This document shows positions 24,645 through 24,863 of a DNA stretch of 64,000 nucleotides, piece by piece; position 1 is the stretch's first letter, and each line of letters opens with the position of its first letter. The stretch comes from Bacteroidia bacterium (GTDB taxonomy: Bacteria; Bacteroidota; Bacteroidia; Flavobacteriales_D; Cryomorphaceae), in the NCBI GenBank assembly GCA_030427905.1, contig JAUICL010000005.1:124001-188000 (forward strand), read 5' to 3'. The notes beneath the pieces were generated by a model, which saw only the letters and a list, made by a program, of their open reading frames with translations, had not been told where the DNA came from and ran no database searches. A program made the translations under genes and the position numbers.

Positions 24645-24677
24645 AAAAAGCCCGCTGAAGGTGTACTTCAGCGGGCT
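24645..24677 (-). terminator. Attenuator terminator in the metYX-hom leader
   Basis: On the minus strand AGCCCGCTGAAG (24677-24666) pairs perfectly with CTTCAGCGGGCT (24660-24649) across the five-base loop TACAC, followed by T residues (24649-24645). It lies between the leader peptide and metY on the coding strand, so it would stop transcription before metY. The 5' arm sequence GCTGAAG is repeated at the leader-peptide stop codon (24713-24719), giving a second partner for the 3' arm. Confidence 0.88.
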
Positions 24678-24714
24678 CAATTCCGTATTATTTTATGGAG
24701 TTATCTCATTCGCT

Positions 24715-24813
24715 TCAGCACATTGTACAGGAGTACATACACATGATGTTCATCATATGCATACAACACATGGTGTTGTTCGGCTGGGCGTTATTTTGAG
24801 ATATGTAGTTCAT
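24715..24813 (-). CDS. Met/Cys-rich leader peptide of the methionine operon
   Basis: 32 aa if started at the ATG at 24813, which is preceded directly by AAAAGGA. The last 18 residues, from an internal ATG at 24771, read MCCMHMMNIMCMYSCTMC before a TGA. That is seven Met and five Cys codons in 18, far beyond chance. It is followed 38 bases later by an intrinsic terminator and then by metY. This is the architecture of ribosome-mediated attenuation: stalling at Met or Cys codons when those amino acids or their charged tRNAs are scarce would prevent the terminator from forming. The first 14 residues are Asn-rich and unremarkable. Confidence 0.85.
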   Translation of the reverse strand: MNYISQNNAQPNNTMCCMHMMNIMCMYSCTMC

Positions 24814-24830
24814 TCCTTTTGTAGGAGCTA

Positions 24831-24863
24831 CAAAGTTAGGGGTGGAAATTTTAAAATTCCAAA
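24831..24863 (-). promoter_or_regulatory. Promoter of the leader-metY-metX-hom transcript
   Basis: On the minus strand TTTG (24863-24860), a 21-base spacer, then TAACTTTG (24838-24831) fit the Bacteroidota TTG-N17-23-TAnnTTTG promoter. It lies 17 bases upstream of the leader-peptide ATG, which gives a short 5' leader and places the whole attenuator in the transcript. Confidence 0.7.

Follow-up and report, generated by a model that had tools for sequence, protein, structure and literature searches.

The enterobacterial attenuators trpL, thrL and hisL combine a short open reading frame (ORF) carrying regulatory codons with an antiterminator that opposes an intrinsic terminator in front of a biosynthetic operon; thrL reads two amino acids. 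The same three elements were found upstream of metY in the window, by which we mean the whole stretch of 64,000 nucleotides that was analysed. However, the window locus differs from its enterobacterial counterparts in several respects: Met and Cys would be read, the organism belongs to another phylum, the putative antiterminator, with its GA/GA loop, arises from a quasi-palindromic copy, and the start codon lies 17 nt behind the -7 box. Polycysteine ORFs have reportedly been the subject of a mycobacterial study (Canestrari, in 2020).

Cysteine leader peptides were proposed in front of cys operons and cbs in Actinobacteria (PMC1262725). In the cited passages these share with the window a leader ORF that ends in runs of Cys codons and its position ahead of sulfur genes, but they have no obvious terminators and precede cys genes, whereas the window combines Met and Cys codons in a Met-rich peptide with a terminator, an antiterminator and a metY operon. 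The window leader does not fit the actinobacterial polycysteine class, as far as this is defined by a Cys run, the lack of an obvious terminator and cys genes. The uORFC-8-2 motif before cysS of Rhodobacterales resembles the window in its Cys codons, its terminator stem and the proposed ribosome-mediated attenuation (PMC8632094); it differs in having two conserved Cys codons, in its target cysS and in its occurrence in Alphaproteobacteria, and the cited passages describe no Met codons. Methionine genes are also regulated by SAM-I riboswitches (S-box, RF00162), which precede the leader in most of the leader-bearing relatives examined but are absent from the family of the window (8 genomes). The nearest case of two signals is the SAM-I riboswitch of Xanthomonas, which additionally senses uncharged initiator tRNA and thus joins SAM and a Met-tRNA signal before a met operon; there the tRNA binds the RNA directly, and the cited passages describe no leader peptide (PMC7270179).

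Within the Bacteroidota, attenuation by leader peptides was proposed for amino acid operons of Flavobacterium psychrophilum, among which the cited passages name pheA, hisG and others, not metY (PMC9723704). Leader-like short ORFs are mentioned in the corresponding part of a Bacteroides thetaiotaomicron map (PMC7366714). The text of an attenuator survey contains none of the terms 'Bacteroid', 'Flavobacter' or 'Cytophaga' (PMC2965389), and reports of SAM-I in Bacteroidetes mention no leader ORF in the cited passages (PMC2258182, PMC2211319). Among the literature matches listed, outside the scope of which fell many subscription papers, neither a Met/Cys leader before metY nor a SAM aptamer gating a leader peptide was present. 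Attenuators that read Cys have been described from other phyla; the Met/Cys version before metY is new. We consider it very probable that metY-metX-hom is controlled by a ribosome-mediated transcription attenuator of the his/trp type which reads Met and Cys.

The leader region of the metY-metX-hom operon

The ORF, its recurrence, the terminator, the pairing potential and the gene context were computed here. All features of the locus are on the minus strand. The operon consists of metY (23263..24603), coding for a member of the O-acetylhomoserine aminocarboxypropyltransferase/cysteine synthase family (TIGR01326, 670.7 bits, cut-off 495.1), a metX-like gene of the homoserine O-acetyltransferase family (22223..23266; TIGR01392, E 2e-104, 349.5 bits) and hom for homoserine dehydrogenase (21264..22226; NF004976, 301.5 bits, cut-off 205; PF00742). 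MetX scored under the curated NCBIfam cut-off of 500, yet by its sequence it clearly belongs to the TIGR01392 family. Overlaps of 4 nt connect metY to metX and metX to hom. The three genes are part of homocysteine synthesis.

The initial annotation had proposed upstream of metY a promoter TTTG-N21-TAACTTTG, followed by an ORF with seven Met and five Cys in its last 18 residues, and both elements are present in the sequence. The promoter-like site lies at 24863-24831 and is predicted by consensus to be of the Bacteroidota type. With the same spacing, TTG-N21-TAnnTTTG occurred in all six loci examined, namely the window, its family members L004-L006 and the other Bacteroidia L033 and L035 (L numbers denote metY loci of the comparison), and each had an in-frame start 16-22 nt behind it (ATG in four, GTG in two). 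In the window, the ATG at this 17-nt distance opens a leader ORF of 32 codons and a TGA (24715..24813), which recurs in relatives. Its product, MNYISQNNAQPNNTMCCMHMMNIMCMYSCTMC, contains 8 Met and 5 Cys. The Met/Cys codons cluster in codons 15-32 (24718..24771), the predicted regulatory part. Such a density was unique among the sites scanned: of 81 ATG-TGY-TGY sites in the genome, only the metY leader had more than six Met/Cys in the last 18 residues (12; the runner-up had 6), and the leader region matched its own genome once only. Directly ahead of the leader promoter lies a further minus-strand ORF of 58 residues, read by eye as membrane-type (MSFIGIIALVCAVWVIYDVW..., 24918-25094).

A hairpin starts 36 nt past the leader stop and is followed by a T-run (24648..24678). 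It is predicted to be an intrinsic terminator with a loop TACAC and a T-run of five, two of which are within the stem count. The strong hairpin and T-run before metY were correctly annotated; the stem, given there as a perfect 12 bp, has 13 pairs when one G-T is counted. The leader RNA of 195 nt was far more stable than its shuffled versions (z -7.1; 0 of 200 as good). In the Rfam scan of the window only a tRNA reached the gathering score; neither a cis-regulator nor a T-box was detected upstream of the operon.

Recurrence of Met/Cys leaders in front of metY

The 164 loci compared are not a random sample, since they were chosen within the class by similarity to the MetY of the window. Matches were obtained in 29 of 399 genomes of the order at E 1e-100 and in 81 of 395 genomes of the class at 1e-140; the best 80 of 580 matches were also included. 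Before counting, two paralogue halves (L002, L003), a locus with 2 nt upstream (L009), two loci below 60% identity (L030, L031) and 11 duplicates were dropped; the remaining 124 loci were joined by 40 further metY loci from 51 additional places in the class search.

The initial annotation would have been refuted if relatives had no Met/Cys-rich ORF ahead of metY, and this refutation clearly failed: such ORFs are present, their sequences differ, and TGT and TGC codons are mixed. In 93 of the 164 non-redundant upstream regions (400 nt) an ORF had at least five Met/Cys in its last 14 residues, compared with 2 on the antisense strand and a mean of 0.74 (maximum 3) in 50 dinucleotide shuffles. By these sequence controls, the recurrence is not a product of chance. 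When residues were tested singly (at least five in 14; one shuffle each), Cys gave 62 loci vs 0 and Met 14 vs 0, next to Leu (47 vs 23), Ala (7 vs 0), Val (7 vs 0) and Phe (14 vs 5). The rise of Leu, Ala and Val is expected, because other frames of TGY runs encode them, and the enrichment was strongest for the two residues Met and Cys. A frame control at 90 loci with a SAM-I aptamer (ATG at +5 to +11 behind the aptamer, ORF of at least 18 codons) yielded at least five Met/Cys in 69 ORFs in the ATG frame vs 1 and 0 in the shifted frames.

Sequences of the leader ORFs differed between relatives while the Met/Cys content was strongly conserved. Both Cys codons were used (TGT 285, TGC 215). In 14 overlapping pairs, 82 of 185 differences fell on third positions, a modest excess, and only 34 of 116 changed codons were synonymous. 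The composition extended from nearly Met-only peptides (L070 Marinilabilia, L076 Thermophagus) via mixed ones (the window, L004, L006) to a Cys-only peptide (L051), which would represent a natural variation in the amino acid read. By the threshold, 61 of the 164 loci were without leader even within 720 nt; the same threshold misses L010 and L053, both positive in the stall test described below.

Eight loci had a further ORF interposed, with the leader standing before that ORF. In L049, L085, L114, L116 and L124 the Cys leader is separated from metY by an OsmC-like ORF of 144-172 aa, and the OsmC family was confirmed for L114; in L052, L058 and L060 the ORF has 73-75 aa, without a Pfam match in L060. 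A tandem pair of Met/Cys leader ORFs precedes metY in L007, L008, L044 and L053, with an own terminator for each ORF in L008 and L044. A pattern of poly-Cys plus stop, searched over 247 genomes of the class as a guide to further operons, matched in at least 149 of them and was uninformative: among 70 inspected loci, two sets of 30 and 40 that partly cover the same places, the open frame ahead of the Cys run was shorter than 25 codons in 55.

Predicted antiterminator pairing and a proposed stall-dependent switch

A set of pairings 1:2, 2:3 and 3:4 can be drawn in the window, which together with the leaders in relatives supports the interpretation as a his/trp-style attenuator already given in the initial annotation. 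Segment 1 comprises ORF codons 4-11 (24783..24802) and may form a protector stem with the region behind the stop (AUCUCA:UGAGAU, CGC:GCG, CAGC:GCUG), a pairing that extends past segment 2 to 24703. Segment 2, UGUGCUGAAGCG (24711..24722), contains the last Cys codon, the stop and a few nucleotides beyond; by pairing energy it is the putative left half of the antiterminator. Its right half would be segment 3, CGCUGAAGUACA (24662..24673), located in the 5' arm and loop of the terminator. Across a GA/GA loop GUGCUGAAGCG pairs with CGCUGAAGUAC of the terminator arm. The 2:3 pairing has 6 + 4 pairs around GA/GA and an energy of -14.6 vs -6.3 kcal/mol for shuffled sequences (p 0.001), in a targeted test that is post hoc, made after the pairing was seen and with arms picked by hand. 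The leader TGA is overlapped by GCTGAAG, which had been annotated as a copy of the terminator 5' arm. The copy is real, but it is better taken as a candidate antiterminator that can pair with the 5' arm itself than as a stand-in for this arm opposite the 3' arm. This is feasible because GCUGAAGC is almost self-complementary. An alternative 2:4, in which the copy would pair with the 3' arm of the terminator, was set aside, since 3:4 is closer and stronger.

From these features we infer that the leader is translated, that ribosomes stall and transcription terminates, which amino acids are sensed and in which direction the operon responds. Translation of the leader ORF would follow directly on its transcription. 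With Met-tRNA and Cys-tRNA charged and plentiful, the ribosome would reach the UGA and cover segment 2, or leave and permit 1:2 to form. With segment 2 covered or engaged in 1:2, the 3:4 terminator would fold and transcription would stop. A shortage of either Met-tRNA or Cys-tRNA would stall the ribosome within codons 15-26 and keep segment 2 free to pair with segment 3 (UGUGCU-GA-AGCG with CGCU-GA-AGUACA); part of the terminator 5' arm and the loop would then be occupied and the operon transcribed. A ribosome stalled at the Met/Cys codons among codons 15-26 (6 Met, 3 Cys) would be sufficiently far upstream not to cover segment 2, if its footprint is taken to reach 13 nt beyond the first base of the A site.

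The pairings were compared with shuffled sequences in relatives. For 1:2, p was 0.043 in the window, 0.017 in L004 and 0.09-0.41 in the other four loci. For 2:3, six loci combined gave p 3e-5, three of the six having individual values of p >0.08. Own pairs of segments 2 and 3 had a mean of -11.9 kcal/mol and swapped pairs -11.0 kcal/mol; with energies so nearly equal, 2:3 covaries only slightly. For the leader end, pairing with RNA further downstream was scored in 62 loci and reached p <=0.05 in 25, while 7 loci paired more weakly than shuffles. RNAalifold detected no consensus structure in the flavobacterial post-leader alignment; in the Cytophagales alignment it drew 26 pairs, 5 with a double change, with a weak covariation term of +0.63.

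In the stall test, a ribosome was set on each codon in turn and the RNA on its 3' side was folded; the upstream pairing of the terminator 5' arm before the 3' arm exists was scored. Ten leader units with visible terminators were available, of which L040 and L043 were excluded, as they had no terminator by the test; in L004-L006, L033 and L035 a U-run terminator was not detectable. All eight units, from six loci (L007, L008 twice, L010, L011, L044 twice, L053), were positive: the probability of a sequestered 5' arm was 0.63-0.91 with the ribosome on Met/Cys codons vs 0.00-0.17 at the stop, with shuffle fractions of 0.00-0.04 (150 shuffles). Among the Escherichia coli controls, trpL changed from 0.71 on Trp codons to 0.01 at the stop and thrL from 0.59 to 0.00; hisL was a failed control, not detected by the test at a difference of 0.01. 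The window itself responded weakly, with a change from 0.52 to 0.20 that a fraction of 0.12-0.13 of the shuffles reached. The full terminator always prevailed at equilibrium (0.99), as it did in E. coli trpL, thus the switch must be kinetic.

SAM-I aptamers in relatives and alternative explanations

Rfam identified SAM-I (RF00162) in 19, 13 and 7 loci of three 20-locus sets, the first of which had been picked largely on a suspected SAM motif. For all 164 loci the count was made with the model R1, built from 20 Rfam hits, in place of a text search for GGCAACC that missed many aptamers. With leaders accepted within 720 nt, 79 loci had leader and SAM-I, 24 the leader only, 33 SAM-I only and 28 neither. 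An aptamer was therefore upstream on the metY strand in 112 loci, in two of the SAM-I-only cases at about 1.5 kb, and in 79 of the 103 leader-bearing loci. In 78 of these 79 the aptamer is closely followed by an in-frame leader ATG, at a median distance of 8 nt from its end (quartiles 7 and 9). Two of the 112 loci were left out of the spacing count; among the 110 usable ones, 96 had an ATG at +5 to +11 (L012, L021, L083 and L094 among them) vs a background of about 1 per position, whereas three SAM-I hits away from metY (L090, L099, L113) had no ATG within 60 nt. Few Met/Cys were present in the ORFs of 19 of the 96 loci, 12 of them named Algoriphagus. Algoriphagus loci such as L068, L078 and L127 have retained the aptamer and an ORF start near +9, with few or no Cys codons.

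The window family is different. RF00162 was absent from all eight genomes, that of the window and seven family members, in which 150 first-look candidates were scored per genome, and neither Rfam nor R1 detected a SAM-I aptamer at the window. SAM riboswitch and leader peptide had been set against each other in the initial annotation; this holds for the window family, which has the leader only, but in most of the leader-bearing relatives examined the leader is directly behind the aptamer, so that the choice is not either/or in this group. We lean towards a two-input device in most of the examined Bacteroidia loci with this metY type. The SAM-I aptamer ends about 8-9 nt before the leader AUG; SAM would set whether the leader is translated, and charged Cys- and Met-tRNA how far. 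The clade of the window would have lost or never had the aptamer and kept the leader, and some Algoriphagus would have kept aptamer and start codon, not the Cys codons. If true, a riboswitch regulating a leader peptide gene would be a new expression platform, which the near-fixed spacing between aptamer and AUG makes directly testable.

A simple test located a U-run terminator behind the leader at 2 of the 79 SAM-I loci and at 6 of the 24 other leader loci. Since they are this rare, loci with an aptamer probably depend on a different device downstream. Hairpins with a conserved loop and no U-run were seen behind the leader in SAM-bearing loci, with a GGGCCC loop in L017, L021 and L026 and a GUGAC loop in L083, L094 and L107. 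The 77 SAM-I leader loci and 18 others without such a terminator favour a variant of the attenuator, in which the leader acts through translation-coupled Rho-dependent termination or on downstream translation and not through an intrinsic terminator, and the mycobacterial cys leaders are likewise without obvious terminators in the cited passages (PMC1262725). We nevertheless regard this variant as unlikely, given the strong terminator with T-run and the pairing antiterminator of the window and the textbook terminator/antiterminator versions in related loci. That the operon responds simply to SAM bound by the leader RNA, the ORF being incidental, might be suggested by the aptamers of the 112 loci, but the lack of RF00162 in the window genome and seven family members, the absence of an aptamer at the window by either model and the conservation of ORF content and frame make this highly improbable.

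Clusters of Cys and Met bind Cu(I), and the leader sometimes stands ahead of a gene of the OsmC family. Both would be in accordance with a peptide that senses copper, another thiophilic metal or the redox state by nascent-peptide arrest, with metYX-hom responding. Yet the peptides vary, being Met-only in L070 and L076 and Cys-only in L051, and by eye their spacing is not fixed; the operon serves sulfur amino acid biosynthesis, and in the window and the eight units the cluster is positioned such that stalling of a ribosome on it would expose the antiterminator segment; metal or redox sensing is thus very unlikely. That the ORF arose by chance, or that it codes for a small protein with a function outside regulation, is barely conceivable in view of the Met/Cys density unique among the 81 genomic sites, the recurrence in 93 of 164 regions, the frame control and the recurring promoter-start layout.

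The attenuator reading Met and Cys would thus be a widespread device at a central sulfur gene in the Bacteroidia, for which few attenuators have been worked out. The compared loci provide a set of species in which SAM riboswitch and leader peptide coexist or one occurs without the other. Elsewhere in the window, a repeat of 170 nt was present in two copies of 86% identity (20393-20562 and 20747-20916), and a probe of 211 nt over it matched the genome 24 times, in full or in part.
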